Source: a virus. From it: a DNA stretch of 36,427 bases. The notes beneath the pieces were generated by a model. It made no database searches. It saw nothing but the letters and a program-made list of their open reading frames with translations, and was not told the origin of the DNA. Of the stretch, positions 2,914 to 21,922 are shown piece after piece. The stretch spans positions 1-36,427 of IMG/VR virus record IMGVR_UViG_3300005913_001015. The stretch is one strand, 5' to 3'. How positions within the stretch are numbered: the stretch's first letter is position 1; each line of letters begins with the position of its first letter. The position numbers and the translations under genes were made by a program.

Positions 2914-2966
2914 CAGGGGCCGGTCCTTATCCCAAACGAACCCACCCAAAAACGACCCGTTTAAAA

Positions 2967-4915: not shown

Positions 4916-4962
4916 GGGACGGCCCCGACCGACTGATCCGAAACCTTAACGAATCGAATACC

Positions 4963-5499: not shown

Positions 5500-5502
5500 C
5501 CC

Positions 5503-5754: not shown

Positions 5755-5800
5755 CCATTTCCTGTTCGGTCCGTCCCCTGGTTCGGTCGGGGATTCGAAA

Positions 5801-5836
5801 GCGGTCCAGGTTTACGCCTGGGCCGCTTTTTTTTTT
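5801..5836 (+). terminator. Intrinsic terminator after the head genes
   Basis: GCGGTCCAGG (5801-5810) pairs with CCTGGGCCGC (5817-5826) across a six-base loop, with one G-U pair, and is followed directly by ten T residues (5827-5836). This is a textbook rho-independent terminator in the only gene-free stretch between the head and head-tail genes. Transcription of the tail genes therefore needs readthrough, antitermination or an unseen promoter. Confidence 0.9.
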
Positions 5837-5852
5837 GACTGATCCCGACGAT

Positions 5853-6176: not shown

Positions 6177-6181
6177 AGGTT

Positions 6182-6544: not shown

Positions 6545-6990
6545 ATAAGTCCCGCGTCGAACAGGGTCTGGCCGATTATATCCAGGCGAAAGTTACCGCG
6601 TCCGCCCTGGCGGACAGCGTCCAGGTTTTACCAGGGAAAACCGACCAGGGCGTCGACCCTGATAAGACAAACGTCTTTTGTATCGCGGACCGGATCGCGA
6701 CGGTTCACGGTCCCATAAAAGAAGGGTTTTTCCGGTTCCAGGTCCAGAAATCAGGGAAGGCGAACGCGATCGAAGATTATCGCCAGGTCCTGGACCTGAT
6801 CGACGCGGCCTTCCCGAACCAGGAAGCGGCGACATATCCCGCAGCGGTCGCCGCTGTCGACGCGACGATCCAGGCCGCGACGTCCGGGTCGAATTGTAAC
6901 GGGTTCGTCCAGACGGAAGCCCAGGACCAGGAGGACGAAAGTCGCTGGGTCGACGATACGAACGTTAAAGCTGGACTGATCGAAAATTGA
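6541..6990 (+). CDS. Probable tail terminator / tail completion protein (149 aa)
   Basis: A 149-residue alpha/beta protein begins with a helix (VEQGLADYIQAKVTASALAD). A central strand pair (FFRFQVQKSG) and a helix (AIEDYRQVLDLIDAAF) follow. This order and size match the gpU-type tail terminators of siphoviruses, which cap the tail tube before head joining. It lies just ahead of the small tail proteins, as expected. Identification rests on predicted layout and position, not on a signature motif. Confidence 0.5.
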   Translation: MNKSRVEQGLADYIQAKVTASALADSVQVLPGKTDQGVDPDKTNVFCIADRIATVHGPIKEGFFRFQVQKSGKANAIEDYRQVLDLIDAAFPNQEAATYPAAVAAVDATIQAATSGSNCNGFVQTEAQDQEDESRWVDDTNVKAGLIEN

Positions 6991-7006
6991 CAGCCCCCGG
7001 AATATT

Positions 7007-7327
7007 ATGGCAGTCACATTCGGAGTACAGAACACTTATGGATTATCGGCCCCCGCTGTCGGTTACGTTACCGAAGCGACCCGAAAGCGGACCATCGAAA
7101 TTGCGACAGTCCAGAATGAAAACGGGGTAACGGTAAAAGCGAAAGCGAAAAAGCTGGTTACTGAGGAAGTAAGCGCAAAGGGTAAAGGCGACGCGGAACT
7201 GGCGGACGTCGCGGCGGGGTCCTTCGCCGCTGGCGTCGTAAAAGTAACGTCCGCGAAACAGTCCGAAACCGACGACGAATTCCCCGACTGGGAACAGTCC
7301 GGCCAGGCTTTCGATACCCTGGCATAA
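7007..7327 (+). CDS. Putative tail tube-type protein (106 aa)
   Basis: This 106-residue Lys/Val/Thr-rich, beta-strand-rich protein contains TRKRTIEIATVQNENGVTVK and VKAKAKKLVTEEVSAKG. With the next gene it occupies the place of the tail tube gene, between tail terminator and assembly chaperone. It is small for a tube subunit, so it could be a tube paralogue or a decoration protein. It is preceded by AATATTATGG. The family is not recognised. Confidence 0.45.
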   Translation: MAVTFGVQNTYGLSAPAVGYVTEATRKRTIEIATVQNENGVTVKAKAKKLVTEEVSAKGKGDAELADVAAGSFAAGVVKVTSAKQSETDDEFPDWEQSGQAFDTLA

Positions 7328-7367
7328 GTCCCACCCCCCCTTTTTTTTAATTTAACGATCCCCCATT

Positions 7368-7694
7368 ATGGCAAACTTAGACGATACCGGAATCCAGTCG
7401 ATAAATACGGCCCTGGTCGATACCTTCGAAGTCGAACGACAGCTTAAGGTTTCCGATCCTGTGACCGAATCGAACGGGGCGTTTCATGCGGCGGAAGCCT
7501 ACGACCCCACCCATAATTTTTCCGCGAAAGGAATGGGGGATATTCCGGTCGCTTACGCCCTGGCTGGGGCTGGCCCAGCGATCGCCGGGATTACTGGCGG
7601 GGTTTCGATTATTACCGACCTGGAGGAAGGGAACAAAAACGACGGACATAATAACTGGGGTATGTCGGGATCGCATTTTCCAGGGGCGTCGTAA
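7368..7694 (+). CDS. Putative tail tube-type protein (108 aa)
   Basis: This 108-residue protein is similar in length to the preceding one. Early residues TALVDTFEVERQLKVSDPVTE suggest beta strands, and the Gly-rich centre AGAGPAIAGITGGVSII looks like a hairpin. Its place, between the tail terminator and the frameshifted chaperone, is that of the major tail protein, and two consecutive small beta-rich genes may share that role. A pyrimidine tract of C and T at 7334-7349 precedes it, but no stem is seen there, so no terminator is called. Confidence 0.45.
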   Translation: MANLDDTGIQSINTALVDTFEVERQLKVSDPVTESNGAFHAAEAYDPTHNFSAKGMGDIPVAYALAGAGPAIAGITGGVSIITDLEEGNKNDGHNNWGMSGSHFPGAS

Positions 7695-7753
7695 GCGTTC
7701 CAAACAGGCCCAGGGGACGGGGGCCTTAACCGATCGAACCAAAAAACCGAACT

Positions 7754-8299
7754 ATGAAGGAAGGCGACGAAATCCGAATTATCCGCGACCGCGATGGAAA
7801 CCCCCCGCTGTTCGCGGACCTTACCGGCCTGGTCGCGATCGCCCTGGCCGCTGGGTTCGATTTTAAGCCAGGGATCGACGGCCAGAAAAAAGCATTTCTG
7901 GACGCGACCGAAGCGACCCAGGCTGGTCCGAAAAGGGAAGTTACCTGGGCGTTCGATAACGCGGGTTCGATTACCTTTCGACCGCTTCCCAGGCCCCAGA
8001 CCTGGACCCTGGGCGAAGTCCTGGAAAAAGCCCAGGATCGCCCATGGTTGGACAGGAACCCGGACCACCCGATAACCCTGGCCGTCGCCGCTGTTCGCCA
8101 GCTGTTATTTTTACAGCGTAAAATGGCCATGGACCCCCGGCGATCCGATACCGCGAACCCTGAGGACCCCGAACTGGGTTTCCCGCTGATTCGTCACGAC
8201 CTGGTAAGGGAAGGAAACCGGAAGTATTTCGTAAAACGACACTGGACGAAGGAACGGAAGCTGGAAGAAATCCAAAAAATGAAACGCGCCAAAAAATGA
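7754..8299 (+). CDS. Hypothetical tail-region protein (181 aa)
   Basis: This 181-residue protein overlaps the tail chaperone gene by four bases (ATGA). The N-terminal half is mixed alpha/beta (GDEIRIIRDRDGNPPL, ADLTGLVAIALAAG) and the C-terminus is strongly basic (HWTKERKLEEIQKMKRAKK). It is preceded by the leader ACCAAAAAACCGAACTATG, a type found before several genes here. No family is recognised. The coupling suggests a tail-assembly or tail-tube-associated role. Confidence 0.6.
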   Translation: MKEGDEIRIIRDRDGNPPLFADLTGLVAIALAAGFDFKPGIDGQKKAFLDATEATQAGPKREVTWAFDNAGSITFRPLPRPQTWTLGEVLEKAQDRPWLDRNPDHPITLAVAAVRQLLFLQRKMAMDPRRSDTANPEDPELGFPLIRHDLVREGNRKYFVKRHWTKERKLEEIQKMKRAKK

Positions 8300-8775
8300 A
8301 CGACGAAACCGAAACGAACCAGGGGGAAGGAACCGAACGGACCCAGGCCCCGAAACCCGACATAATGGACGAAGGGGTCCGCCAGGAATTACTGGCGAAA
8401 ACTCACATAAACGGGGGGCCGAAAGAATACGCGACCGAAACCGGCGACCGAATCCAGCTTCGACGGTTTTCGCTTATGACAATGGAACTTTGCGAGTTAA
8501 TGCCGCTTCCAATGATGATGGACGGGGTCGACGGCCTGAGTAACCAGGACCTGATCGACCAGGTTACCGCGTTCGCCTGGATGCAATCCGAACCCCTGGA
8601 AATGGTCTGTTCGCATATCGACGCGGGGACCTGGAAAACCCCGGTTCGAATGTTTAAAGCGAAACTGGATATTCCCGTAATTTCGTTATTACTGGACGAC
8701 GTCGGAGTCCAGGCGAAACAGGCCGCAGCGTCCGCGTTCGAACTGAAAAAAAAAGCCCGGAAAATGACGACCTAG
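8296..8775 (+). CDS. Tail assembly chaperone, short form (G-like)
   Basis: This 159-residue protein sits directly before the tape-measure region and ends beyond a run of nine A. It has the features of lambda gpG-type chaperones: an acidic, disordered start, a helical middle (QDLIDQVTAFAWMQSEPLEM) and a C-terminus that crosses a slippery sequence. At A9 (8746-8754) a -1 slip extends it into the T frame. Such chaperones coat the tape measure protein during tail assembly and are absent from the virion. Confidence 0.8.
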   Translation: MNDETETNQGEGTERTQAPKPDIMDEGVRQELLAKTHINGGPKEYATETGDRIQLRRFSLMTMELCELMPLPMMMDGVDGLSNQDLIDQVTAFAWMQSEPLEMVCSHIDAGTWKTPVRMFKAKLDIPVISLLLDDVGVQAKQAAASAFELKKKARKMTT

Positions 8776-9080
8776 AAGCGGACGAACCCCCGGAAGGTTT
8801 CCGGGGTCCTGGCTGGCTGGCGACGATTATCCTGTCGATCGCGTCGAAAACTGGCTGGTCGGAAGATTATATCCGCTTCGAACTGACCTGGCCCAGGGCT
8901 GTCCAGTATCACCTGGGGGCCGTCCTTATGGATTCCGTCCATTATTGGACCGTCGCCCCTGGTTACGGCGACGCGAACAGCGGGACGTCGTCCGCCCCGA
9001 TTACGGACCAGCTGGACCAGCTGGACGCCTGGGACCAGGCTGGCGATCGGGACGACCTGGCGTTCGCCCTGGACGATTAG
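8296..9080 (+). CDS. Tail assembly chaperone, long form (GT-like) by -1 frameshift
   Basis: The frame -1 to the short form is open from the A9 run (codon AGC at 8754) to TAG at 9078-9080. It lacks its own start and shows the genome's typical codon choice throughout (GAA, CTGG, GCG before A). Slippage on A9 fuses 153 residues of the G part to 108 residues of T, for a total of about 261. The T part begins SPENDDLEADEPPEG, has a hydrophobic segment (WLATIILSIASKTGW) and an acidic Asp-rich end. This explains the otherwise gene-free 320 bases before 9096 and matches the conserved G/GT arrangement of long-tailed phages. Confidence 0.85.
8746..8754 (+). other. Slippery A9 sequence for -1 programmed frameshift
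   Basis: Nine A are read as AAA AAA AAA in the G frame, then GCC. A -1 slip continues as AGC CCG GAA into the long T frame. The zero-frame stop TAG follows at 8773. No strong pseudoknot was worked out downstream; a GGTTTCCGGGGTCC-type stem is possible just after 8790. Confidence 0.8.
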
Positions 9081-9095
9081 ACTGGCCCCCTGGAT

Positions 9096-9755
9096 ATGGC
9101 AAAGGCGGAAGTTTTCGACGTCGACTATTCGTTACTTTTGGAACGGACCGCAGTCTGGGCGGGTTTAATGAAAAAGGAACTGGGGGAACTTTCCCGAACC
9201 CAGTTTAAGGGGATCGTCCGCGAAGTAATCAGGACGACCCCGCCAGGGTCCGCGAAAACCCAGGGGACAGCGGCGAAAAAATCCGGCGAAAATAAAATCC
9301 GGGGGGACGTTATGAGGGCCGTAATTCCGACCCGTTCGAACCGCGTCGATACGACCGACGTCGCCGGGGTAATCGCCCCGCTTCGAAACAGTCGCGGAAC
9401 CGTCCGACGTCCTTCGAAAAAGGTCCGCGTTCCCAGCCAGGCCGCGACCGCTTACATAAAGGAAAAACAGCGAATGGTCGGTTACGTCGCCGGGGCCTGG
9501 AACCCCGCAGCGGCGAAACTGGGTTACAAGCCCCCCGCCTGGATATGGCGACACGGTTCCCCCGGTTCCATAAAAATCGAAATCAGCGACGACCGAATAC
9601 TGTTTCGAGCGACGAACCGCGTTCGATACGCTGGGAATATTAAATTTTTCAAAAATCGAATCCAGGGCGCGATCGACGACCAGGCGGGAAAACTGTTTAG
9701 ACAGATTTCGCACGTAACCGGGAACACTGCGAAAAAAGCGTCGATCGGGAAGTAA
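9096..9755 (+). CDS. Minor tail protein, hypothetical (219 aa)
   Basis: This 219-residue basic protein lies between the chaperone and the tape measure. The N-terminal helix region (LLLERTAVWAGLMKKELG) is followed by a long basic linker (VRRPSKKVRVPSQAATAY) and a C-terminal domain with WNPAAAKLGYKPPAWIWRHG. Its basic make-up and conserved-looking Trp/Pro cluster fit a virion protein. No family could be named with confidence. It starts 15 bases after the T-frame stop without a Shine-Dalgarno sequence. Confidence 0.55.
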   Translation: MAKAEVFDVDYSLLLERTAVWAGLMKKELGELSRTQFKGIVREVIRTTPPGSAKTQGTAAKKSGENKIRGDVMRAVIPTRSNRVDTTDVAGVIAPLRNSRGTVRRPSKKVRVPSQAATAYIKEKQRMVGYVAGAWNPAAAKLGYKPPAWIWRHGSPGSIKIEISDDRILFRATNRVRYAGNIKFFKNRIQGAIDDQAGKLFRQISHVTGNTAKKASIGK

Positions 9756-9760
9756 AAGCC

Positions 9761-11539
9761 ATGGCAGATATTACCGCAGAACTGGACCTTGAAATCGCGA
9801 AGTTTCGCGGGGCGTTAAAAACGGCCCAGAAACAAATGGGGTCCTTTTCGAAACGCGCCGGGAAACAGGGCCAGGGAATCGGCGGGGGCCTTAAGTCTGG
9901 CGTCCTGTCCGCGTTTAAGACAGTCGGCCCCGCCCTGGCTGGTATCCTGGCCGCTGTCGGGATCGCTAAGGCTGGCCAGGTTATCGGGGGCGAATTCGCC
10001 AAGTCGATAAAATCAGCGGCGGAACTGGAAAAGCTGGAAATTTCCTTCGAAGTCCTGACCGGCGACGCGGACCAGGCGAAAAAAACCCTGGGCGAACTTC
10101 GCGAACTGGGGGCGTCGACCCCCCTGGAATTTTTCGACCTGGCCGGGGCCGCGAAACAGTTACTGGCGTTCGGGGAATCAGCGGAAAACGTCCCGGAAGC
10201 CCTTCGCCGGATCGGGGACGTTTCGACGGCGATCGGTGCGCCTATCGGGGAAATTGCGGAAATTTACGGTAAGGCCAGGGTCCAGGGGACTTTATTCGCG
10301 GAAGATATTAACCAGCTTACGGGACGCGGGATTCCGATTTTACAGGAATTCGGAAAACAGCTGGGGGTCCCTGTCGACCAGGTAAAGAAAATGGCCAGCG
10401 AGGGAAAAATTACGTTCGATATGCTGGAACAGGGGTTCCAGTCCATGACCGGCGAAGGGGGCCAGTTTTCGGGAATGATGGCGCGACAGTCGAAAACCCT
10501 GGGCGGACTGTGGTCGACGTTTAACGACCAGCTTACCGAATTACGCCTGGCCCTGGGCGAACCGATCGCGGACGCAATCCGCCCGATCCTGGCGAAGGGG
10601 ATCGGTCTGGTTTCGTCCCTTAAGGAACGCGTCGCCGCAGCTGGGGCCGCTATCGGAAATATGGTTAAATATATCGTCGCCGCGTTCCAGACCCTGGGGT
10701 CTGGCGACCTGGTAAACCTGATAAAAACGGCCCTGATCCTGGCGTTTAAGGCGGGTATGAATTTCCTGTGGAAAACCTTAAACGCGACCTGGTCCGCAAT
10801 GGGAACCCACATGGTCCAGAACTTTAAAACGGCGATCGAACTTTTTAAGATACTTACAAAAAAGGATTTCTGGAAAGGTATGGGCCAGGCGTTCCTGGCT
10901 TACGGCGACGCCCTTCGCGCCCTGTTGCTTAATGCGATCGCGTCGTTACTGGAAGGGGCCGCGAAAGTCCCAGGCGTCGCGAAGCTGATCGGGGACGCCC
11001 CGGAAGCCCTTCGCGAAATGGCCGACGACGCGAAGGACAGCGCAAAGTCCAGGACGGACGAAGCTGGCGACCTGTTGGAAGGCCCCGCAATGGCCGCAAT
11101 GCAAGCGATCGCGGACCAGGCGAAAGCGGTCGCCGCGTCCTTCCAGGAAGGGTTCCAGGATACCCAGGACGTTTTCGACACTTCCGAACAGATCGCGGAA
11201 CTGGCGAACGCGTCCGCCCGAATCCAGGCCCAGGTCGCGTCGAACCAGGCGGACGCGGCGGACGCGGCGGAAGGGTCCGGCGAAGGGGAAGGCGATAAAA
11301 TCCCGTCCCTGGAAAGTAAGCGGAAAGTCCAGGGAACCCTGGCCGGGGGACTGGGTTCCCTGGGGTCCGCGATTTCCCTTTTAACCGGGGGGTCCGGCCA
11401 GAAACTGGTCCTGGACCAGGCGAAAGCCCAGACGAAACAGCTGGCCGACGTAAACGCGACCCTTACCGATATTAAGAATAAGAAACCCGTCGCGCCCCAG
11501 ATAATCGTCCAGGGCCGTCCGGTTTTCGCGAACGCGTAA
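9761..11539 (+). CDS. Tail tape measure protein
   Basis: This 592-residue protein sets tail length and is ejected with the DNA. The N-terminal tape-measure domain is clear: LEKLEISFEVLTGDADQAKK, then STPLEFFDLAGAAKQLLAFG, then FAEDINQLTGRGIPILQEFG (about residues 85-205). Hydrophobic stretches at about 48-80 (FKTVGPALAGILAAVGIAKAG) and about 300-350 may insert into the host membrane. Ala/Gln-rich helical regions fill the C-terminal half. At roughly 0.15 nm per residue it predicts a tail of about 90 nm, a rule-of-thumb inference. It follows the frameshifted chaperone, as in other long-tailed phages. Confidence 0.93.
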   Translation: MADITAELDLEIAKFRGALKTAQKQMGSFSKRAGKQGQGIGGGLKSGVLSAFKTVGPALAGILAAVGIAKAGQVIGGEFAKSIKSAAELEKLEISFEVLTGDADQAKKTLGELRELGASTPLEFFDLAGAAKQLLAFGESAENVPEALRRIGDVSTAIGAPIGEIAEIYGKARVQGTLFAEDINQLTGRGIPILQEFGKQLGVPVDQVKKMASEGKITFDMLEQGFQSMTGEGGQFSGMMARQSKTLGGLWSTFNDQLTELRLALGEPIADAIRPILAKGIGLVSSLKERVAAAGAAIGNMVKYIVAAFQTLGSGDLVNLIKTALILAFKAGMNFLWKTLNATWSAMGTHMVQNFKTAIELFKILTKKDFWKGMGQAFLAYGDALRALLLNAIASLLEGAAKVPGVAKLIGDAPEALREMADDAKDSAKSRTDEAGDLLEGPAMAAMQAIADQAKAVAASFQEGFQDTQDVFDTSEQIAELANASARIQAQVASNQADAADAAEGSGEGEGDKIPSLESKRKVQGTLAGGLGSLGSAISLLTGGSGQKLVLDQAKAQTKQLADVNATLTDIKNKKPVAPQIIVQGRPVFANA

Positions 11540-11543
11540 GATT

Positions 11544-12257
11544 ATGGGACAGGTAAGAAATCAGGGAATAACCGGCAAAGTATCCCGCGAAGGTCTGGCG
11601 ACCTTTACGGTTCCGTATTTCGTCGACACGTTGGACGAAGCGTTAAACGCTGGGGACGGGGCGTTCCTGGGGATACCGCTTTCCGAACGAAGTTTTACCG
11701 AACGGAAAGGCGGGGAAGGCCATGGGTTCGATTGCGTCGTTTCTTATGAGGGATTAGAGGAAACGAAGGAATCAGGCGACCAGGAAACTTACGAATGGCG
11801 GGGATCGTTTTCTAAGGAACCGATCGAAACCCACCCGAAAATAAACGACCTGATCGCGACTTATGGCGGACGGATCGGGGCGGACGGAAAGGTTACCTGG
11901 GACCCTAAGTTACCGGAAGGGTCGACCGCTGGAACCGGCGAAGGGTTGGATTTGGGCGAGGACGCCCCGGAAACCGAAAAAAACCCCATGTATGGAAACG
12001 ATACTTACCTGGTCCTGGGGGCGATATTTTCCAGGACGCGGGTCGTAAAGGATATTCCCGACGACGTCCTGGAACAGATCGGGAAAATTTATTCGTCGAT
12101 CCCCTGGGGAAACTTCCCGACCCCGACCGGTCGCGACTGGCTGGGAATGGCCCCGACTATTTCCCAGCGGGGGAACGCTTTCGAAATTTCTGATAATCTC
12201 ATGTTATCCGCCCCTGGGGGCTGGCCGAAACCGATCCACGAATTGATTACGGTTTAA
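11544..12257 (+). CDS. Minor tail protein (237 aa)
   Basis: This 237-residue protein immediately follows the tape measure, where distal tail and tail-tip proteins are encoded. It has a beta-rich first half (GKVSREGLATFTVPYFVDTL), an acidic middle (EGLDLGEDAPETEK) and a distinctive C-terminal module with IGKIYSSIPW, GRDWLGMAPTISQRG and LSAPGGWPKPIHE. The same module, clearly homologous, ends the possible Tat-signal protein at 17981-18508. The family is not recognised beyond this internal pair. Confidence 0.6.
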   Translation: MGQVRNQGITGKVSREGLATFTVPYFVDTLDEALNAGDGAFLGIPLSERSFTERKGGEGHGFDCVVSYEGLEETKESGDQETYEWRGSFSKEPIETHPKINDLIATYGGRIGADGKVTWDPKLPEGSTAGTGEGLDLGEDAPETEKNPMYGNDTYLVLGAIFSRTRVVKDIPDDVLEQIGKIYSSIPWGNFPTPTGRDWLGMAPTISQRGNAFEISDNLMLSAPGGWPKPIHELITV

Positions 12258-12261
12258 GGTT

Positions 12262-12891
12262 ATGGCGATCCCGCGATACCTTTACCCGAACCCCGGCGAC
12301 GACGTCGACGAATACGTCGACCGACTTACGGCCTGGGCCGAATCGACCGACGTCGTAATCGGTTCCCCCGGTCTGGAACTGATCCAGAACGAACTGGGGA
12401 CCGCTGTCGTTTATAAACCCCGGAACGCCTGGGATCATCCTTTCCGGGTTTCCGCGTCGTCGTCCAGGGTCCAGGTCGCCCTGGGGTTTTTAAATGACCA
12501 GATACCCCGGATAAACGGGGTAACCGTCGACGGGATCGACGCGAACGAAAAGCCTGTCGACGTCCCCCAGCTGGCGATCGAACCCAGCGAGTCGACCGCG
12601 TCCTGGGTCTGTCTGGCCCAGCTGGTCGACGACGACGGCGAACCTGTCGCCCCAGCTGATAACCCGGAAGCCCTTACGATCGTCCACGTTACCGGCGAGC
12701 TGGACCCCGCTTTTATCCAGGGCGGGTATCCCGACGATATGGGGATCGGTTTACAGCCACTGGCCAGGCTGTCCTGGCGCGACGGGAACCTGGCCAGGGT
12801 TTTCCAGATTGTTTACCATAACCTGGGACACCGGTTTAAACAGGGCACCGGCGATCGCCCTGGCCGACATTTCTTTTTTGCCCAGGGGTAA
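12262..12891 (+). CDS. Minor tail protein (209 aa)
   Basis: A 209-residue protein starts four bases after the previous stop (TAAGGTTATGG). It opens with YPNPGDDVDEYVDRLTAW, has a beta-rich middle and ends LARVFQIVYHNLGHRFKQGTG followed by a short basic/aromatic tail. It lies in a closely spaced minor-tail run (3-4 base gaps) between tape measure and fibres, so a tail-tip or baseplate role is likely. No family is recognised. Confidence 0.55.
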   Translation: MAIPRYLYPNPGDDVDEYVDRLTAWAESTDVVIGSPGLELIQNELGTAVVYKPRNAWDHPFRVSASSSRVQVALGFLNDQIPRINGVTVDGIDANEKPVDVPQLAIEPSESTASWVCLAQLVDDDGEPVAPADNPEALTIVHVTGELDPAFIQGGYPDDMGIGLQPLARLSWRDGNLARVFQIVYHNLGHRFKQGTGDRPGRHFFFAQG

Positions 12892-12893
12892 CG

Positions 12894-13925
12894 ATGCGCG
12901 ACGACGTCCAGGATTACAGTTTTACGATCGACCCGACCGTCGATTCGATCGCGGTTTCCGCCTGGGTCGAAATCGTCGAACGCGTCGCCAGGAATCGACC
13001 AGTAAGGTTCGACGTCCTGGAAAAAGGCCGGTTTCGACACCCCTGGAACGTCGCCTTACGCTGGTCCGCTGATAACGAACGCTGGGAATCGAACGTCGAA
13101 CCTGGATTCGTAAACGGCCTGGACGCGACGATCCGGCTGGACGCCCAGGACGCCCCGCCCGAAACTGTCGCCAGGGTCCAGGGGTCCGACGAAAAGCCCC
13201 CCAGCGGACGCGTCGACGCCAGGCTTACCGAATTCCCCTGGTTCCCTTTGAGTCGCGAAAACTGGCGAACGGTCGGAACGGACGCGATCGGACTGGAACT
13301 GGAAAAGGTCCCCGACTATTTCGTAAAGCTGGGCGTCCGGGAAGGGTCGACGATAAACCAGTCCCCGACCGGGGTTTCGGTATCGACCCCCGACAATACG
13401 GAAGGCCCCCGGCGATTACTTCGCGCCCAGGAAGTAATTTTAACCCAGGATCGCCCCGCCCTGGTCCCGACGATCGGGTCGGACGGCGGGTTCGCGACTA
13501 TCGACTTTACATTATCGCCCCCAGGTCGGGAACGATCGTTCGTTACGTTCGTCCCGTCCTGGGAACCTAAGGCCGAAATCGAAGGGCTGGCCATGTTAAG
13601 CGGGGCGACCGACCAGCCCTTCGAACAGTTACAGATCGCGACGGTTTACCTGTTGAGTATGGACGGCGAACCGGACGGGGCCGACGTCGACGAAAGCTGG
13701 ACCCCGTTCCTGGCCCATAAAGTTTTCTGGAACCTGAATTACGAAAATAATATCGACCTTAAGGCTACCCCAAAGTTCGAAAGGTATCCGGTCCCGATCC
13801 CCCTGGCCGGGGGCGTCGCCCAGCCAGTCGTCGACGCCCTGGTCGACGGGGTTACGGACGCGGCGAACGCGGCCCTTTCCCTTTTGAACGATTCGAAGGT
13901 CGTCGGTAAATTCTGGATTATCTAA
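12894..13925 (+). CDS. Minor tail / tail-tip protein (343 aa)
   Basis: This 343-residue, strand-rich protein starts two bases after its neighbour. Segments such as DYSFTIDPTVDSIAVSAW, RLLRAQEVILTQDRPALV and FERYPVPIPLAGG suggest several beta domains, as in tail-tip proteins. The last 40 residues form an Ala/Val helix (AQPVVDALVDGVTDAANAAL) ending FWII. Context places it in the tail-tip complex. No catalytic motif or named family was recognised. Confidence 0.55.
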   Translation: MRDDVQDYSFTIDPTVDSIAVSAWVEIVERVARNRPVRFDVLEKGRFRHPWNVALRWSADNERWESNVEPGFVNGLDATIRLDAQDAPPETVARVQGSDEKPPSGRVDARLTEFPWFPLSRENWRTVGTDAIGLELEKVPDYFVKLGVREGSTINQSPTGVSVSTPDNTEGPRRLLRAQEVILTQDRPALVPTIGSDGGFATIDFTLSPPGRERSFVTFVPSWEPKAEIEGLAMLSGATDQPFEQLQIATVYLLSMDGEPDGADVDESWTPFLAHKVFWNLNYENNIDLKATPKFERYPVPIPLAGGVAQPVVDALVDGVTDAANAALSLLNDSKVVGKFWII

Positions 13926-13927: not shown

Positions 13928-14119
13928 ATGGCGGACGAAAACGAAAACGACGGGTTCGGCCTGGACAAAAAAAACCGCCTGGAATATCAGCGACGGGAAC
14001 GCCTGGAAGGACGCCAGCCTGTCCGCCTGGAACCCGACTTCCCGTTCGTCGCGTCCCCCGCGTTCGATCCCGACGTTTTCGATATTCCCGCGAATCCCAG
14101 GGTAAAAACAGACCTGTAA
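13928..14119 (+). CDS. Small hypothetical protein closing the minor-tail run (63 aa)
   Basis: A 63-residue, charged, Pro-rich protein (RLEYQRRERLEGRQPVRLEP) starts two bases after the tail-tip gene in an ACCATGGCGG context. Its codons match the genome. Its stop (14117-14119) overlaps the first GTAAAATTTAC operator-like repeat, so it is the last gene before the accessory cassette promoter. Function is unknown. Confidence 0.6.
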   Translation: MADENENDGFGLDKKNRLEYQRRERLEGRQPVRLEPDFPFVASPAFDPDVFDIPANPRVKTDL

Positions 14120-14128
14120 AATTTACGA
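14116..14128 (+). promoter_or_regulatory. Operator-like repeat, upstream copy
   Basis: GTAAAATTTACGA is an imperfect palindrome (GTAAA-A-TTTAC). An identical 13-bp copy begins at 14150, 34 bp away and thus about three helical turns. This copy lies upstream of the -35 box of the dpdA promoter. Paired sites on one face of the helix fit a cooperative repressor or activator. Confidence 0.7.
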
Positions 14129-14137
14129 CGTTTTCGC

Positions 14138-14166
14138 TTGCCAGGTCCCGTAAAATTTACGATAAT
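14138..14166 (+). promoter_or_regulatory. Sigma70-like promoter of the dpdA cassette
   Basis: TTGCCA (14138-14143) and GATAAT (14161-14166) are separated by exactly 17 bases. Each differs from consensus at one or two positions. The predicted transcription start, about 14172-14174, is at or next to the dpdA ATG at 14175, so the message would be leaderless or nearly so. The second operator repeat fills the spacer, so a bound protein should block RNA polymerase. Confidence 0.7.
14150..14162 (+). promoter_or_regulatory. Operator-like repeat, downstream copy inside the promoter
   Basis: This is the second copy of GTAAAATTTACGA, identical over 13 bases to 14116-14128. It covers the 3' part of the -35/-10 spacer and touches the -10 hexamer. 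The position is typical of a repressor site. The XRE-type regulator at 17407-17781, in the same cassette, is the obvious candidate to bind it, but this is inference. Confidence 0.7.
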
Positions 14167-14174: not shown

Positions 14175-14978
14175 ATGAAAACCGAACTTTTCACCGGCCT
14201 GGAATTAGAAAACCCCCGACTGGCCCAGCTTACGATCGAACAGGAAATCCCCGTTATGGTTTCCGCGAACCGTTTATGGGATAATAAGCGGGGACGCTGG
14301 AAGAATATCCCCCAGTATTTAAAGGACCAGCCCCGCCTGTTCTTGGATTCCGGGGGGTTCGTCGCAATGAAGGACCCCGGTCCCCGTAACGGTTTCCGTT
14401 TTTCCCTGGTCGATTACTGTCGCCTGGTCGCGGAACTTAAACCCGACGCCTGGGCGTCCTGCGATTATTGCGTCGAACCTGAGGTAATCGCCCAGGGACC
14501 GTCGATTATGGACCGGATCGCCGGAACCGTCCAGAACCTGTCCGACCTAAACGAGCTGGCCGACTGGTTCGAAATCCCCCGCCCCGTCCCTGTTTTACAG
14601 GGCTGGGAATCCTGGCATTACGAAGCCTGTCTGGATATGTTCCACCGTTTCGAGTTTTCGAAAAAAAAAGGCTGGCCCCCCGTTATCGGGATCGGTTCGG
14701 TATGTCGCCGCGATATGGCTGGATCGGACGGCCTTCGCGAAATCCTGGCAAAGATTACGCCAGCCCTTCCAGTTGGGACCGCTTTACACCTGTTCGGGGT
14801 AAAGGGGAAAGCCCTGGGCGAATTCGCGGACGACCCGAAAATCGCGTCCGTCGATTCCATGGCCTGGGCCATGGCCGCACGATGGGAAGCGAAACGCGCC
14901 GGGATACCCTGTTCGGTCGATTTTAAAATCCAGCATTTCAGCGCCTGGCGCGACCGGAACCTGGCGAACGCCGCTTAA
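14175..14978 (+). CDS. dpdA: DpdA-like DNA transglycosylase (7-deazaguanine insertion into DNA)
   Basis: This 267-residue protein belongs to the tRNA-guanine transglycosylase superfamily, DpdA-like branch. DpdA enzymes exchange guanine in DNA for a 7-deazaguanine such as preQ0. Visible motifs are FLDSGGFVAM (Asp58, the TGT DSGGFQ position), WASCDYCVEPE (Asp97), PVPVLQGW, VIGIGSVCRR, ALHLFGVKG and SVDSMAWA (Asp227, matching the TGT nucleophile region). The canonical C-terminal CxCxxC zinc site of tRNA TGTs is absent. No preQ0 synthesis genes (folE, queC, queD, queE) lie in this window, so the base must come from the host or from genes elsewhere. It is first in a cassette with its own promoter. 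Confidence 0.85.
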   Translation: MKTELFTGLELENPRLAQLTIEQEIPVMVSANRLWDNKRGRWKNIPQYLKDQPRLFLDSGGFVAMKDPGPRNGFRFSLVDYCRLVAELKPDAWASCDYCVEPEVIAQGPSIMDRIAGTVQNLSDLNELADWFEIPRPVPVLQGWESWHYEACLDMFHRFEFSKKKGWPPVIGIGSVCRRDMAGSDGLREILAKITPALPVGTALHLFGVKGKALGEFADDPKIASVDSMAWAMAARWEAKRAGIPCSVDFKIQHFSAWRDRNLANAA

Positions 14979-14997: not shown

Positions 14998-15477
14998 ATG
15001 AAAATGAAACGATACCCGAAGGAAAACGAAGGACGCCTGGCTTACCGGATCGCTAAGTCCTGGGTCCAGGATTGCGTCGACATTATCGCCCAGCGTCGCG
15101 ATCCCGCGAAGCTGTCCGCCCTTATGGATCGAGGCTGGGTCGGGACCTTTATTTACGAATGGGAGGACGAACAGGCTGGGGCGGAATTACAGATAACGAA
15201 AGCGGCCCTGGTTCGTATTCGTCGCCAGGCGATCCGGGAAGCGGGGGCGATCCTGACCGGTTCGGAAATTTACAGCCATATCGTCGCCCATTTCCGCGAC
15301 CGCAAAGTCCGCGACGACGCCCAGGCCCTGGCCGATAAGAAAGCGGCCAGGGACGCCAGGCGGAAGGAAGCGTCCAGGCTGGCGAACGAACGGAATATCG
15401 AACGAGGTCGGAACCTTTCGACCCCAGTCCGTCGACATAAAATCTGGGATAAGCTGGAAGGAATCCAGGCCCCTTAA
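14998..15477 (+). CDS. Hypothetical basic helical protein (159 aa)
   Basis: A 159-residue protein begins with a helix containing AYRIAKSWVQDCVDIIAQRR and ends in a long, highly charged helix (ADKKAARDARRKEASRLANE) plus a basic tail. The charge pattern suggests nucleic-acid contact or coiled-coil assembly. It follows dpdA by 19 bases and is probably co-transcribed, so an accessory role in DNA modification is possible but unproven. No family is recognised. The leader is TGATATTATG. Confidence 0.6.
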   Translation: MKMKRYPKENEGRLAYRIAKSWVQDCVDIIAQRRDPAKLSALMDRGWVGTFIYEWEDEQAGAELQITKAALVRIRRQAIREAGAILTGSEIYSHIVAHFRDRKVRDDAQALADKKAARDARRKEASRLANERNIERGRNLSTPVRRHKIWDKLEGIQAP

Positions 15478-15495: not shown

Positions 15496-16035
15496 ATGAT
15501 AAAATTAGAATACTGGAACGAAAAAGCCTGGAACGCCGCTGGGGAATTCCCCAGCGACAGGATCGCCTGGCTTTCCCTGGGCGAAGATAACGACAATTAC
15601 AGGACGCTGGACGAAGCGGGGGACGTAATAACGGACCGGGGGCCGGATACGAAAGTCGAACCGGGTTCGACTTTAAACGACGACCGCGACCAGGGCCTTT
15701 CGTTCGCCCTGGTCGTCGACGCCCTGGTCGATTCTGGCGTCCTGGAAGCTGGCTGGGAATTACGGATCGGTCCGTCCGGTCCGGGGGCTGTCTGGGTCCT
15801 GTATAGCGAACCGCGAAACCGTTACCTGGCGTTCCCGAACGATCGCGAACTGTCTGGCCCCTTGCTGGACCTGTTTATCCAGACAGCCCTGGCGAACGCC
15901 CCGGAAACCTGTCGCCAGGTATGCCTGGCGGACCCCTTCCCAGGGAACGCCCCGTCCTGTCCAGTATGCGGACGCGGGACGTTTCACCGGTCGACCGGCT
16001 GGGCCTGTCTGTCGATCCTTCCAGGTCGGAAATAG
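15496..16035 (+). CDS. Hypothetical protein with C-terminal zinc ribbon (179 aa)
   Basis: This 179-residue protein is acidic in its first half and contains KVEPGSTL (about residues 53-60), encoded by the same 23-bp palindrome as in the portal gene. The C-terminus carries a zinc-ribbon-like set: CPVCGRGTFH followed by C at TGWAC, with two more cysteines upstream (CRQVC). It is preceded by the leader ACCGAACGAAAAAACCGAA. The family is unknown. The neighbours (dpdA upstream, sugar dehydratase downstream) hint at a role in modification. Confidence 0.6.
   Translation: MIKLEYWNEKAWNAAGEFPSDRIAWLSLGEDNDNYRTLDEAGDVITDRGPDTKVEPGSTLNDDRDQGLSFALVVDALVDSGVLEAGWELRIGPSGPGAVWVLYSEPRNRYLAFPNDRELSGPLLDLFIQTALANAPETCRQVCLADPFPGNAPSCPVCGRGTFHRSTGWACLSILPGRK
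15652..15674. repeat. Palindromic element, copy 2, inside the zinc-ribbon protein gene
   Basis: The arms AAAGTCGAACC (15652-15662) and GGTTCGACTTT (15664-15674) surround a central G. All 23 bases are identical to 448-470 in the portal gene. It is again read in frame as KVEPGSTL, although the two host proteins are otherwise unrelated. Confidence 0.85.
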
Positions 16036-16053: not shown

Positions 16054-17391
16054 ATGGAAAAGAAAAAACGAATTCTAGTAACGGGGGCCTGTGGTTTTAT
16101 CGGTTCCCATTTCGTCCAGCTGATCCTGGAAAGGACCGACTGGGAAGTCGTCGCGCTGGTCGGACTGAAATACGCCAGCGACGTAAACCGGCTGGCGTTC
16201 GTCGGTCGCGAAGCTGGCTGGGAACGCCTTACATTTATTTATCACGACCTAAGGGAACCGATCCCGGACCAGGTCGTCGATCGAATCGGTTCGGTCGACT
16301 ATGTCGCGACCTTCGCCAGCCAGTCCGACGTCCAGCGGTCCCTGGATAACCCAGCGGAATTCGTAAAGGAAAACGTCGCGATCGCCCTGTCGATCCTGGA
16401 ATACGCCAGGATCGCGAAACCCGAAAAGTTTATCCTGGTATCGACCGACGAAGTTTTCGGCCCAGCGGCCCCCGGATCGTCCGCCCTGGAATGGGACCCC
16501 CATGTCCCATCGAACCCTTACGCGGCCAGCAAGTCCGCCCAGGAAGCGATCGCGATAAGTTACTGGCGTTCGTATGGGGTCCCGGTCCTGATTACAAACA
16601 CGATGAACAATTACGGCCCAGGCCAGCACCCCGAAAAATTCGTCCCGAAAGTCGTCCAGGCTGTCCTGGCTGGAACCCAGGTTCGAATCCATGGCGAACC
16701 CCATCCCCTGGGGGGCTGGTCCGCTGGGTCCAGGGTCTGGTTACATGCAAGGGACCACGCGGACGCCCTGGCCTGGATACTGGAAAACATAACCCCGGCC
16801 AGGTTCGGGGACAGCGATCGACCCGATAAGTTTAACGTCGCCGGGGAAGTCGAAGTCGATAACCTGGAACTAGCGGAACGGATCGCGGACGCCCTGGACC
16901 TTCCCCTGGATTACGCCTGGGAAAATTTCCACGCGTCCCGCCCTGGACACGACCTTCGCTATTCGCTGGACGGCCAGAAACTTTCGGACGCTGGCTGGAA
17001 GCGTCCCAGGACATTCGCCCAGGGACTTCGCGAAACGGTCCAGGCCCTGGCGAAGCGTCCCCCCGAAAAATCCCAGGACGATCCAGACCGCGACCCTGTC
17101 GACCAGGCTGTCCTGGACACCCTGGAAGCCTGGGCCGCTGATAAGTCCCGGAAGGACGGCGGGGGGTTCGACTTCCAGCTGGAAAAGGGATTCGGGTCGA
17201 CGGTCGACCTGGCCAGATACGCGCCCCCGATCCCGTTAGAACTGGCCAGGCGAATTACGGCCAGGCGACGTTTCCGCTGGGACGTTTTCCAGTTGGGCCT
17301 GTCTGTCGTCGAAATGGAAACCCGGACCGAACCTGGGACCCTGGCCGACGAAACTTTTACCTTTCGCGTCGCTATTGATCGACGCCCTTAA
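16054..17391 (+). CDS. NDP-glucose 4,6-dehydratase-like enzyme (RmlB-type) with C-terminal extension
   Basis: This 445-residue protein has an N-terminal extended SDR of RmlB type (about residues 1-335). The NAD-binding motif is TGACGFIGSH (10-19). The dehydratase signature STDEVFGP, the catalytic pair Tyr156/Lys160 in NPYAASKSAQE, and the segment MNNYGPGQHPEKFVPKVV are also present. Such enzymes oxidise C4 and remove water from C5-C6 of NDP-glucose, the entry step to deoxysugars. Residues about 340-445 form an extra acidic then basic domain (PPIPLELARRITARRRFRWD) not found in the usual ~350-residue family. It lies in the dpdA cassette. The downstream sugar user could be the glycosyltransferase at 24100. 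Confidence 0.85.
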   Translation: MEKKKRILVTGACGFIGSHFVQLILERTDWEVVALVGLKYASDVNRLAFVGREAGWERLTFIYHDLREPIPDQVVDRIGSVDYVATFASQSDVQRSLDNPAEFVKENVAIALSILEYARIAKPEKFILVSTDEVFGPAAPGSSALEWDPHVPSNPYAASKSAQEAIAISYWRSYGVPVLITNTMNNYGPGQHPEKFVPKVVQAVLAGTQVRIHGEPHPLGGWSAGSRVWLHARDHADALAWILENITPARFGDSDRPDKFNVAGEVEVDNLELAERIADALDLPLDYAWENFHASRPGHDLRYSLDGQKLSDAGWKRPRTFAQGLRETVQALAKRPPEKSQDDPDRDPVDQAVLDTLEAWAADKSRKDGGGFDFQLEKGFGSTVDLARYAPPIPLELARRITARRRFRWDVFQLGLSVVEMETRTEPGTLADETFTFRVAIDRRP

Positions 17392-17406: not shown

Positions 17407-17781
17407 ATGAAAAACAGGAAAACGATACTATTCGATCGGGATAACGGCGAAGTCGCCGGGGTCGCGAATCACGACCCCGACCACCCGGACGCCCAGGCGA
17501 TCGGGGTCCCTGGTCCGACCAGGGCCTGGGGCGACTTGATAAGCCAGGACCCCGAACGGTTCGTAATGGTCGGAACGGACGCGATCATAACCGGCCAGGA
17601 ACTTCGCGACCGGCGAAAGGCCCTTAAAATGACCCAGGAAACCCTGGCGTCGATCCTGGGGAAATCTAAGTCGATAATCGAAAAGATGGAAAGCGACAGC
17701 CCCAGCGGGGTTCCCGTTACGGGGTCGGTCGCGTTCCATATCGACCAGGTTTTAAATCAGCTGGAAGGGGCGAAGCCATGA
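17407..17781 (+). CDS. XRE-type helix-turn-helix regulator (124 aa)
   Basis: This 124-residue protein has an N-terminal ~55-residue segment and a C-terminal HTH: ITGQELRDRRKALKMTQETL, then ASILGKSKSIIEKMES. The pattern R-x-x-R-K-A-L-x-M-T-Q-x-x-L-A is classic for Cro/CI/antitoxin-type XRE domains. N-terminal extension plus HTH resembles MqsA/HigA-like antitoxins, but no paired toxin is evident. It overlaps the next gene by four bases. It may regulate its own cassette through the twin GTAAAATTTAC sites at 14116 and 14150. The leader is ACCGAAAAACCAAAAAATG. Confidence 0.8.
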   Translation: MKNRKTILFDRDNGEVAGVANHDPDHPDAQAIGVPGPTRAWGDLISQDPERFVMVGTDAIITGQELRDRRKALKMTQETLASILGKSKSIIEKMESDSPSGVPVTGSVAFHIDQVLNQLEGAKP

Positions 17782-17984
17782 CCCAGCCAGGTAATAAGAA
17801 ACCGACAGGACGACCGAAAGGTTACGGCCAGGCCGTCGCCTGGATCGCTGGCCAGCGACACCGGGGGTTTTCCTGCGATAACGCCCGGGCCCTGGTCGGG
17901 TTCCTGTGGTCGAAGCCAGGCGACCGCGTCGCCCAGGACGTTCGACGCGACCAGGCGATTTTACGGAAGGGGGCGAAGCCATGA
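17778..17984 (+). CDS. Small basic hypothetical protein (68 aa)
   Basis: A 68-residue protein (ATGA overlaps on both sides) with a basic start (NKKPTGRPKGYGQAVAWIAG) and a central segment with one Cys (GFSCDNARALVGFLW), rich in Arg. The RPKGYG stretch resembles an AT-hook-like DNA minor-groove motif, but only one copy is present. The tight coupling to the XRE gene suggests a partner, for example a co-regulator or a toxin. Function is unknown. Confidence 0.55.
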   Translation: MTQPGNKKPTGRPKGYGQAVAWIAGQRHRGFSCDNARALVGFLWSKPGDRVAQDVRRDQAILRKGAKP

Positions 17985-18508
17985 AACGCCGCGAAATAAT
18001 TAAGGGGACAGCCCTGTCGATATTCGCGGCCCTGGTCGATCGGGTTCCCGACGTCCAGGCGAAGTCCTTCGACGACCTGGTCGTCCTTTCCCCGGATCAT
18101 ATCGACCCAGTCGCCCCGCTGGAAAACGGCGAAACTGTCTGGGAACTGGAATTTTCATTCCAGGAACGAAAGGTCCGGGACGGCGACGGGAAGGTCGTCG
18201 CGACCTGGGTCGACCCGAACGTCCGAACGATCCTTACGAAACATTACCGAACGGATCGCCTGGACCCTGATCCGTTCGCGAATATCGGACGGATCGTTCC
18301 CGTAAAACCCCCAGGATTTCCCGACCTGGCCCCTGGTCGCGACTGGCTGGGGATCGGTCCCAGGATTAACCAGCTGGGCGACGAATCCCGTTTCCGCTGG
18401 GAAGTCCGCGAAAACTTCCAGCTTTCCCCGGAAGGGGGCTGGGGTCCCCTATACGAAACGGGGTTCCTGGATACCCGCCTGGCGGAACCATGGAAGGGGG
18501 ACGAATGA
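17981..18508 (+). CDS. Possible exported (Tat-like signal) protein with tail-protein C-terminal module (175 aa)
   Basis: The ATG at 17981 (four-base overlap upstream) gives 175 residues. The N-terminus MKRREIIKGTALSIFAALV has twin arginines, a hydrophobic stretch and AQA-type residues (DVQA) that could be a cleavage site, so a Tat-like signal is plausible. The C-terminal ~60 residues, with IGRIVPVKPPGF, GRDWLGIGPRINQLG and LSPEGGWGPLYE, are clearly homologous to the end of the minor tail protein at 11544-12257 (shared GRDWLG, I-x-Q, LS-x-x-GGW). An exported copy of a tail module could interfere with superinfecting tails or decorate virions; this is inference. Confidence 0.6.
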   Translation: MKRREIIKGTALSIFAALVDRVPDVQAKSFDDLVVLSPDHIDPVAPLENGETVWELEFSFQERKVRDGDGKVVATWVDPNVRTILTKHYRTDRLDPDPFANIGRIVPVKPPGFPDLAPGRDWLGIGPRINQLGDESRFRWEVRENFQLSPEGGWGPLYETGFLDTRLAEPWKGDE

Positions 18509-18763: not shown

Positions 18764-21700
18764 ATGGAAGCCTTTTTATTCGCATCGCTAAACCGTAAGA
18801 CGCTGGCCCCGACCCTGGGGGATACTGGCTGGACAGCCCCGGACTTTTTCCTGGGCGATAAGTCGAAAATTACGTTACGACTAACCCAGAATATCGGGGG
18901 CCGGGAAATCGAAGTCGACCGGACGATCGAATCTATTCGCTGTTCGCTGGGCCGCGTCGACGCCAGGCCGACAGGCGGGACGTTCGCCCTTAAAATCGAA
19001 GGGACAGGCCGCGAATTTACGGTGGAGTCCGCGACCGACACCCTTACGGCCCTGGCCCATGGCCTGGCGGACGGCGATCGCGTCCGGGTTTCGTCGAATG
19101 ACGTTTTACCCGCTGGCCTGTTCGCTTCGACTGATTATTACGTTAAGGCCGCGACCGCGAACGACTTCCAGCTTTCCCTTTCGGACGGCGGGGCCGCTGT
19201 CGACTTTACCGATAACGGAACCGGAACCCATACCCTGGAAAACTTAAGCGTCGACGTCGACTTCGACGATACCGCAGCGACAGCGGCCCAGGATTTCCAG
19301 GACGCGGTAAACGGCCTGGCCGACGTCGGGATCGGGAAAGTTTATTCCCCGGTCGCGGTCGAAGTTAAGGACGGTTCCTGGATCGCGACCGGCCCCGACC
19401 CGATCCCGTTCCTGGTCGCGGCGAATTCGCTGGCCCCGGTTACCTTCGCCAGGATCGCGACTTATTCGTCCGACGACGACCAGGTTACCGAAGTCCGCCT
19501 GGTCCAGGCCCCCGTCGCGTTCCAGTCCGCTTACGCCCAGGTCGTCCCGAAATCCCCGTATTTTATAAACCCTTCCCCCCAGGACGGCGGGGAATTCGGC
19601 GAAAACGTATGGCCGGAAATAAAAGCCCTGGCCGTCCCCCCGAACTTTCGCGGGTCGTTCCAGGTCCGGCGATCGGGAAAGCGGTCGACCTTGCTTTCGA
19701 AGTCGGACGGGTCCCGCCAGATAAAAACGGCCCTGGACCCCCTGGCCGACGACGGCGGGGAATTTACCGTTACGAACCCCAGGGCGAACGTCGCCCATAT
19801 TCGATACGACGGGACAATGGAGGGGATAAACTGGCCGGACGACGACCTGGAAATCGTCGTTTTCGACGCCCCGGCTGGCGACTTCCAGATCGACCTGGAC
19901 CAGAATACTTCCCAGGCCCTGGCGATCCTAAGGGCTGGCGATAAGGTCCCCCTGGTCCTGGAATTAGAGGTTACCTATCAGGACGAACAGGACGCCCAGA
20001 TAAAACACCGGTCGACGTTTACCCAGGACGTAACCTTCCGTCGCGAAGTCGGCTGGGACGAACTGGAAAACACCCCGAACCAGGAATGGTTACGGCCCCC
20101 ACTTCCGAACGATTATTACCCTTTCAACGCGACCCAGGTAATTCCGGGCCAACAGCATTACCCCCAGGTTTTCGGTAACGGAACCCTGGACCCAGCGGTA
20201 ATCGCTCACGGTCTGAATACTGAGGAAATCGCCAGCGTCGTCGTTCGCCAGAACGTCGCCGGGGGTCGCGCCCTGGTCCATGGTTCGGACTATACCTGGA
20301 CGATCGACAACGCGAACCAGGTAACGATCCAGGTCCTGGCGAATTACGGAACCCCTGGGGTCGATACCCTGGTCGCCCTGATTACGTCCGCTGGGCCGGT
20401 TTCCGCTTTTGTCGATAATATCGAAATCGAACTGGGCCAGGTAAACGGCCTGGGCGAACTTTTGGACAGTATGTTATCCGATATTAAGGACCTTAAATTA
20501 CTGGCCCCGTCGAAGGTCCTTTCCCGGACTGAGGATTTAAAAGGCGGGTCGACCTGGTTACTTCCCCCGGTTTTCGACCTGTTCCCGCTTACCCAGGCCC
20601 CGGTCCTGGAAGCGACCCCGGAAAAAATTTACGATATTCCCCAGGAAGTTTTCCAGGACGCGTTCGGGCGAACCCGTCGACCTGGGGCGTTACTTCCAGC
20701 GGTCCACGACGAAGCCCCCGAAAGCCTGGACGCGATCCTGGTATCCGGCGAACTTCCCGAAAGCGACGCGTCGCGTAAGGGGAAGGTATTCGTAAACGAC
20801 AGCGGCGGAACCGTCGATATTCCAGGCGGGGGCGGACGACTGGGTCGGACCCTGGGCCTTAACGATTACCTGGCGGACGACGGACGGTTTTTTTACAAGG
20901 TCGTCCCCTATGGCGTCCAGGCGGGAACAGTCTTTACGGCTGAGTCCCCCCAGGCTTTTACAGGCGACGACGCGGACGACTTGCTTACGATCGTCGGCCA
21001 TGGTTTCGCGGACGACGAACGCGTCCGGCTTTACACGACCGGAACCCTTCCCGCTGGGCTGGCCCTGGCGACGGACTATTACGTCCAGACAATCGACGAC
21101 GACACGATCCAGTTACTGGACGACCCAGCTGGGAACGCGGTCGACCTGACCGACACCGGGACCGGGGTCCATACGGTTTTCCGTCCCGACCTGTTTACTT
21201 CCGTCGATCATCGCCTGGACAATGTCGACCGCGTCCAGCTGTCGACGACCGGAACCCTTCCCGCTGGCCTGGTCGCGGCGACGGACTATTATGTCGCTGG
21301 GCGGACCGCGTCGACCTTTACCCTTACCCTGGCCGGAAGCCTGGCGACGATCGACGCGACCGACCTGGGAACTGGGGACCATACGGTTACGAAACAGGGC
21401 GACGTTTCGTTTTATCCCGTCGACTTCGAACGGACGCTGTTCGACGTCGCGGTAAACGATCAACAGTTACGGATCGGGAAGGTATTCGAAACGCTGTTCG
21501 GCCTGGAACTGGCCCTGTTAAAAGCGACGTCGAAAGTTACTTGTGTCCTGGTTATCGAAATCGGGGATATGCCCCAGGACCTGACCCCGGCGACGCCAGG
21601 GTTTAACATTAAAAACGCGGTCTGGCGTCCGTCCCCAGCTGTCGAAATCCCGCTTACACTTACGCCGGTCCCTTCCCGCCATGTCGCCGGGGTTCGGATT

Positions 21701-21922
21701 AAACGGACGCTGTCGGGGATAACCCTGGACCAGCTGGTTTACGATAACGTCGCCGGGGGAACTGGACCGGACGCGGCGAACTTCGCCTTACGCGCCAGGC
21801 TGGTCCGGTTCGATACCGAAAACGACGTCGTCGACGCCAGGGGGTTTATCGCTGTCGTCGGGGCCGATATGGGCCTGGACGGTTCCAGGACCCCGGACCT
21901 GGGAATCGCGACCATTAAATAA
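18764..21922 (+). CDS. Large fibre / tail-tip protein with three copies of a ~75-residue domain (1052 aa)
   Basis: This 1052-residue, beta-rich virion protein is probably part of the tail tip or a side fibre. A ~75-residue domain occurs three times: about residues 86-160 (ALAHGLADGDRVRV, ASTDYYVKAATANDFQLSL), 725-805 (GHGFADDERVRLYTTGTLPAG) and 811-875 (VDRVQLSTTGTLPAGLVAATD). The consensus is HGL-x-DGD-R-V-x-x-x-x-x-x-LPAGL-x-x-x-TDYYV. The domain also occurs in the major capsid protein and in the next gene, and suggests adhesion to glycans or surfaces. The rest has Ig-like and helical parts. It stands directly after the cassette terminator. Confidence 0.75.
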   Translation: MEAFLFASLNRKTLAPTLGDTGWTAPDFFLGDKSKITLRLTQNIGGREIEVDRTIESIRCSLGRVDARPTGGTFALKIEGTGREFTVESATDTLTALAHGLADGDRVRVSSNDVLPAGLFASTDYYVKAATANDFQLSLSDGGAAVDFTDNGTGTHTLENLSVDVDFDDTAATAAQDFQDAVNGLADVGIGKVYSPVAVEVKDGSWIATGPDPIPFLVAANSLAPVTFARIATYSSDDDQVTEVRLVQAPVAFQSAYAQVVPKSPYFINPSPQDGGEFGENVWPEIKALAVPPNFRGSFQVRRSGKRSTLLSKSDGSRQIKTALDPLADDGGEFTVTNPRANVAHIRYDGTMEGINWPDDDLEIVVFDAPAGDFQIDLDQNTSQALAILRAGDKVPLVLELEVTYQDEQDAQIKHRSTFTQDVTFRREVGWDELENTPNQEWLRPPLPNDYYPFNATQVIPGQQHYPQVFGNGTLDPAVIAHGLNTEEIASVVVRQNVAGGRALVHGSDYTWTIDNANQVTIQVLANYGTPGVDTLVALITSAGPVSAFVDNIEIELGQVNGLGELLDSMLSDIKDLKLLAPSKVLSRTEDLKGGSTWLLPPVFDLFPLTQAPVLEATPEKIYDIPQEVFQDAFGRTRRPGALLPAVHDEAPESLDAILVSGELPESDASRKGKVFVNDSGGTVDIPGGGGRLGRTLGLNDYLADDGRFFYKVVPYGVQAGTVFTAESPQAFTGDDADDLLTIVGHGFADDERVRLYTTGTLPAGLALATDYYVQTIDDDTIQLLDDPAGNAVDLTDTGTGVHTVFRPDLFTSVDHRLDNVDRVQLSTTGTLPAGLVAATDYYVAGRTASTFTLTLAGSLATIDATDLGTGDHTVTKQGDVSFYPVDFERTLFDVAVNDQQLRIGKVFETLFGLELALLKATSKVTCVLVIEIGDMPQDLTPATPGFNIKNAVWRPSPAVEIPLTLTPVPSRHVAGVRIKRTLSGITLDQLVYDNVAGGTGPDAANFALRARLVRFDTENDVVDARGFIAVVGADMGLDGSRTPDLGIATIK
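21035..21267 (+). repeat. Direct repeat from duplicated fibre domains
   Basis: A 23-base identity beginning ACGACCGGAACCCTTCCCGC occurs at 21035-21057 and again at 21245-21267, 210 bp apart. It marks domain copies two and three as a tandem duplication of 70 residues. Both encode TTGTLPAGL. Confidence 0.85.

Follow-up and report, generated by a model that had tools for sequence, protein, structure and literature searches.

A DpdA-family protein of a tailed phage, a candidate DNA guanine transglycosylase, and its relatives on phages and large proteobacterial plasmids

The dpdA-like gene at positions 14175-14978 (+ strand) of IMG/VR virus record IMGVR_UViG_3300005913_001015 encodes P0001, which family, fold and conserved residues mark as a candidate DNA guanine transglycosylase and which represents a new DpdA-family member within an apparently untested clade. 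The ORF, running from ATG to TAA over 267 aa, was confirmed. The record is linear, and its entire 36,427 bp is referred to here as the window. On the + strand, its main genes are arranged as in tailed phages: portal, head maturation protease, major head protein and tape measure precede the dpdA-like gene, which is followed on its 3' side by a putative tail fibre (18764-21922), a D-Ala-D-Ala carboxypeptidase-like endolysin candidate, a ParB-like protein and a primase. The preferred explanation, which is considered probable with considerable room for doubt, is that P0001 is a phage DpdA-type enzyme that uses preQ0 or a derivative supplied by the host for a partial, anti-restriction modification of the phage DNA.

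P0001 matched the Pfam DpdA model (PF23859) with 70.3 bits (cut-off 27), its residues 25-261 aligned to positions 20-248 of the 291 in the model, and matched phrog_1279 with an E value of 2e-21, while PF01702 of the tRNA transglycosylases (TGTs) gave no match at E<=1. The profiles therefore placed the protein with DpdA, and not with the tRNA transglycosylases or the unrelated TIM barrel that the first-pass annotation had named as outcomes against its DpdA reading. An AlphaFold (AF2) model calculated with 76 relatives as input reached a pLDDT of 94 and a pTM of 0.91, and its top fold match in the PDB was the bacterial DNA preQ0 insertase DpdA 7ui4 (E 1.8e-7, TM 0.63), with TGTs of human, mouse and bacterial origin next (TM about 0.57-0.64). 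Since the TM-scores of DpdA and TGT overlap (0.63 vs about 0.57-0.64), the fold is evidence for the superfamily and not for the substrate. The 7ui4 protein, with 413 residues, is larger than P0001, shares 15% identity with it and belongs to a multi-gene island. In sequence searches of solved structures, the queries P0001 and A2 found no match and A3 gave weak, meaningless matches (E 0.6), and a single-sequence scan of viral contigs found no close relatives of P0001. Membership in the DpdA/TGT superfamily is almost certain. The notion of an unrelated TIM-barrel protein mistaken for DpdA can draw on the appearance of TIM barrels such as PdxJ among the fold matches, but the curated DpdA model scored far over its cut-off, the family-wide motifs are present and DpdA and TGT head the fold matches, leaving this notion a practically negligible probability.

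The superfamily motifs recognized in the first-pass annotation (D58-SGGF, SC-D97-YC and SV-D227-S228-MAW) are all present. The active-site-type residues of P0001 comprise D58, D97, Q142-G143, G172-G174, C177, R179, H205 and D227-S228; among 164 relatives, conservation reached 99-100% at D58, D97, E101, Q142, G143, G172, G174, C177, R179, H205, G208, D227 and S228, and every family-conserved residue of that alignment is present in P0001. D58, D97, D227 and S228 were moreover invariant among 76 diverse relatives, and the retained H205 is the histidine of 9g-type DpdA. By motif order rather than superposition, D58 and D227 would be the equivalents of the general acid/base and the nucleophile of TGT, respectively. 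In the proposed mechanism, guanine would be removed from DNA by base exchange via an aspartate-linked intermediate in which D227 and D58 take these parts, and a 7-deazaguanine base would be inserted in its place. The length of 267 aa, described earlier as short for the superfamily, is indeed short beside TGT chains (about 350-390 aa) but ordinary for the DpdA family, whose model has 291 positions and whose relatives span 258-298 aa.

The choice between DNA and RNA as the target was weighed on several lines of evidence. The first-pass annotation was right that P0001 has no CxCxxC zinc site, and had read this as the mark of a DNA-directed enzyme. The site is equally missing in clade A, in clade B and in the 9g/CAjan set (see below); because it is missing in every set tested, its absence is compatible with a DNA-type enzyme but does not demonstrate one, and its use as proof of a DNA target was rejected. 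An RNA-directed transglycosylase, which would swap a base in host or phage tRNA and so tune translation rather than modify DNA, would account for the equal TM-scores of P0001 to DpdA and TGT and for the queuine tRNA-ribosyltransferase annotation of phrog_1279. It would also account for Q142-G143, since this 'QG' motif is a TGT feature that P0001 keeps and the 9g/CAjan proteins lack. TGT/QTRT1 has the fold and the catalytic-type aspartates in common with P0001, which is the shorter protein. Against an RNA target, P0001 has no match to the TGT Pfam family and no zinc site, the window contains no tRNA gene, and the relatives of P0001 stand beside Mom, ArdC and plasmid genes, a context of DNA protection. 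On balance an RNA target is judged improbable, and DNA is the likely target of P0001.

Within the family, a maximum-likelihood tree of 76 sequences resolved two clades, A and B, each with a support of 100/100. P0001 branches at the base of clade A, which also takes in several viral contigs and many Pseudomonadota genomes, and clade B contains actinobacteriophage-type proteins. P0001 scored 258 bits with a clade A profile built without it, 125 bits with the clade B profile and 5 bits with a profile of 9g, CAjan and L178-L180, which leaves it outside the validated phage DpdA group. The columns of D58, D97, H205 and D227-S228 are nevertheless common to P0001 and the 9g/CAjan DpdAs, for which dG+ and dPreQ0 insertion has been validated. 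The 9g and CAjan DpdAs gave no match to PF23859, and the protein of mycobacteriophage Beezoo matched it at 615 bits. The mycobacteriophage singleton DpdAs (PF23859 core; Hutinet group 3, e.g. Orion, cluster K) share Pfam family, length, motifs and fold with P0001 and likewise come from phages with no synthesis genes, and BLAST had suggested them as its nearest group; the tree and profiles overturned that suggestion, assigning the singletons to clade B and P0001 to clade A. Clade B is further distinguished by YhhQ and QueC neighbours and by a Cys-rich stretch found in 15/41 members and missing in P0001. The gp20 protein of UncleHowie (genus Pegunavirus), taken as a stand-in for the Orion-type DpdA, scored 363 bits with clade B and 114 bits with clade A; Orion itself belongs to the same B1 group as UncleHowie. 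No clade A member with tested activity was found in the literature; a published name for the clade may exist.

Across the whole record, no match to QueC, QueD, QueF_N or the Vut_1 transporter was obtained, which extends the earlier remark that no synthesis genes lie nearby; as the record is a linear fragment, their absence from the virus itself is not proven. Neither the preQ0 pathway (QueC, QueD) nor a transporter adjoins dpdA in the record, and the neighbours of P0001 in the window have no preQ0 link, unlike the 9g/CAjan phages, which have preQ0 genes. The phage would apparently not make the base, and preQ0 or a derivative would be made or imported by the host. In the 2019 survey of Hutinet et al., the most numerous group was that of phages whose DpdA comes without synthesis genes, 76 of which were listed (PMC6884629). 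Among these DpdA-only phages, the DNA of mycobacteriophage Orion, whose host lacks preQ0 genes, was unmodified (<6 per 10^6 nt), and Salmonella phage 7-11 carried 50 dADG per 10^6 nt, or 0.02% of G (PMC6884629). In MED16, also DpdA-only, dADG amounted to about 0.13% of G and gave little protection from restriction (PMC8306585).

These precedents bear on a competing explanation, in which P0001 is a competent DpdA-like enzyme and the virion DNA is essentially unmodified for want of precursor, the gene being retained for use in hosts that provide the precursor or persisting as a relic. Orion and 7-11 point in this direction, as does the window, in which no synthesis or transporter gene was found. 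MED16 speaks against it by carrying dADG with DpdA alone, and the intact set of family-conserved residues makes a decaying relic unlikely. This explanation is considered rather unlikely. According to the tree and profile scores, with UncleHowie in clade B, the negative result of Orion comes from a cousin clade and the positive ones of 9g/CAjan from a still more distant group. The statement in the first-pass annotation that P0001 is DpdA-like stands, whereas its claim of a virus that probably has 7-deazaguanine in its DNA says more than the evidence allows, since DpdA-only phages range from unmodified to 0.13% of G and P0001 lies outside the 9g/CAjan group shown to modify DNA. Detectable 7-deazaguanine in the virion DNA is judged to be somewhat less than an even prospect. 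For the preferred reading, a host-supplied DNA transglycosylase, the phage DNA would be modified at most in part, and some restriction enzymes would be blunted as a result.

Relatives do have genes of preQ0 synthesis or uptake as neighbours of dpdA, which speaks against dismissing the 7-deazaguanine claim. Among the clade B loci, 21/107 have a gene for a YhhQ-type transporter (Vut_1) directly beside dpdA on the same strand and 3 have QueC near dpdA; in all 13 Vut_1 carriers among 50 whole records scanned, Vut_1 shares the strand of dpdA and lies 57-369 bp away. Such viral loci of clade B include L024, L026, L027, L028, L031, L032, L036, L037 and L040, and the same pairing recurs in L043, L046, L047, L054, L079, L205, L221, L227 and others. 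E. coli YhhQ is described as a preQ0 transporter in PMC5372724, and the position of Vut_1 beside dpdA suggests that phages lacking synthesis genes take up preQ0. In clade A, the viral contig L010, whose DpdA is 35% identical to P0001 and its second-best viral match by score, has QueC directly 3' of dpdA (dpdA-queC at L010:1470-2899; 18-bp gap; QueC 198 bits), and QueD was not found in its record; this QueC would convert host CDG to preQ0. Among 99 clade A loci, QueC was a neighbour once and YhhQ never.

The clade A loci differ from those of clade B in their neighbours. A Mom DNA-modification gene lies <=3.5 kb from dpdA in 6/99 of them. Mom stands next to the dpdA-like homologue in L002 (MT836715.1, 1260-3092) and likewise in L020 and L126, the two neighbours possibly forming a two-enzyme DNA modification cassette. 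An ArdC antirestriction gene lies <=3.5 kb away in 23/80 clade A genome loci, ArdC having been named by eye from the sequence and from the gene in the corresponding position of L181, which is annotated as a zincin-like metallopeptidase. QueC was detected in 34/34 bacterial carriers tested; its reading as an enrichment was rejected because control genomes have QueC too (11/14 over the cut-off). Taken as a whole, the gene context supports a preQ0-linked chemistry that modifies DNA in this family, although the direct evidence for it is sparser within clade A.

A tblastn search with P0001 found relatives on 119 plasmids, 39 of them typed conjugative, and nearly all plasmid relatives among the matches listed are annotated as hypothetical proteins. 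Clade A genes occur on large sphingomonad plasmids (L181, NZ_CP065669.1 56130-73191; L098, L111, L130 and others), between ParB/ArdC-type/thermonuclease genes and a PRTRC cassette, in one case directly before PRTRC. The plasmid relatives, for example that of Sphingomonas paucimobilis NZ_CP065669, and L010 are 35-39% identical to P0001 within the same clade; the sphingomonad copies keep company with ParB, ArdC-type, thermonuclease and PRTRC genes, and L010 with its own queC. The presence of clade A, common and unannotated, on large proteobacterial plasmids is the most interesting lead and lies outside the window. A tentative and rather doubtful extension of this lead is that clade A constitutes an unrecognised branch of DNA guanine transglycosylases of phages and of large, often conjugative proteobacterial plasmids, with P0001 as a deep branch, in which preQ0 of the carrier cell marks mobile DNA against restriction with no synthesis genes of its own. 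If clade A is active, base exchange would be a general anti-restriction strategy of mobile DNA, reaching beyond phages with their own pathway; the copies on plasmids raise the possibility that conjugating DNA, too, is protected by this chemistry. Because QueC or a preQ0 transporter lies in the dpdA gene run of some relatives, host supply or salvage is open to a direct test.

In the window, dpdA appears to open a short gene run with its own control region. A putative promoter/operator at 14115..14166 (+) comprises two 13-bp palindromes 5' of dpdA, TGTAAAATTTACG (14115-14127) and CGTAAAATTTACG (14149-14161), and a sigma-70-like sequence TTGCCA-17-GATAAT (14138-14166, + strand), whose spacer contains most of the second palindrome. 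With <=2 mismatches, CGTAAAATTTACG matched 8 times in the window vs 1.4 in shuffles, palindromic sites being counted on both strands, and the promoter scan on its own was near chance (3 found vs 1.9 expected). No riboswitch, preQ1 or other, precedes dpdA. Downstream on the + strand follow genes for a 159-aa protein with no family match (14998..15477), probably co-transcribed with dpdA judging from spacing and strand; a 179-aa protein, likewise with no family match, whose C-terminus resembles a zinc ribbon (CPVC...C; 15496..16035); a nucleotide-sugar epimerase/dehydratase (phrog_540; 16054..17391); and a small HTH protein (17407..17781) as the candidate regulator. With its palindromes, promoter-like sequence and small HTH protein, the run looks like a separately regulated cassette.

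The epimerase, about 1 kb downstream of dpdA in the same gene run, raises the idea that the DNA transglycosylase handles another base, or one that is decorated further, for instance by later glycosylation via the epimerase (16054-17391) and a GT2-like protein (24100-25473), and the distance of clade A from the characterised DpdA group would leave room for it. The glycosyltransferase, however, is 9 kb off and below the Pfam cut-offs, neither gene clusters with dpdA in relatives, and phage epimerases and glycosyltransferases commonly have other functions, so that this idea is rated as highly improbable. For a phage genome of about 40 kb, the joint presence of this epimerase and the GT2-like protein is an observation in its own right.

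Regarding the record itself, a second contig, L170, from metagenome IMG 3300025425, is identical to window 1-12910 and extends 2870 bp leftward with a GpA-type terminase large subunit. Terminase and replication genes occupy opposite ends, which suggests that little of the phage genome is missing, though this is not proven. No near-identical phage was found in GenBank for window 1-25000. For the portal (403-2031) and the terminase (L170:961-2961), the best isolate match was Akkermansia phage Moulinsart, at 31% and 25%, respectively, a faint hint at a host in Verrucomicrobiota or a related group. The proteins at 11544-12257 and 17906-18508, otherwise different, have in common a stretch of ~60 residues (GRDWLG..., E 3e-9). 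The major head protein (3722-4915, residues ~224-301) and the putative tail fibre (residues 87-170) matched the same PHROGs, 7765, 4711 and 9370, and these matches suggest that the head and tail proteins share a surface-type domain.
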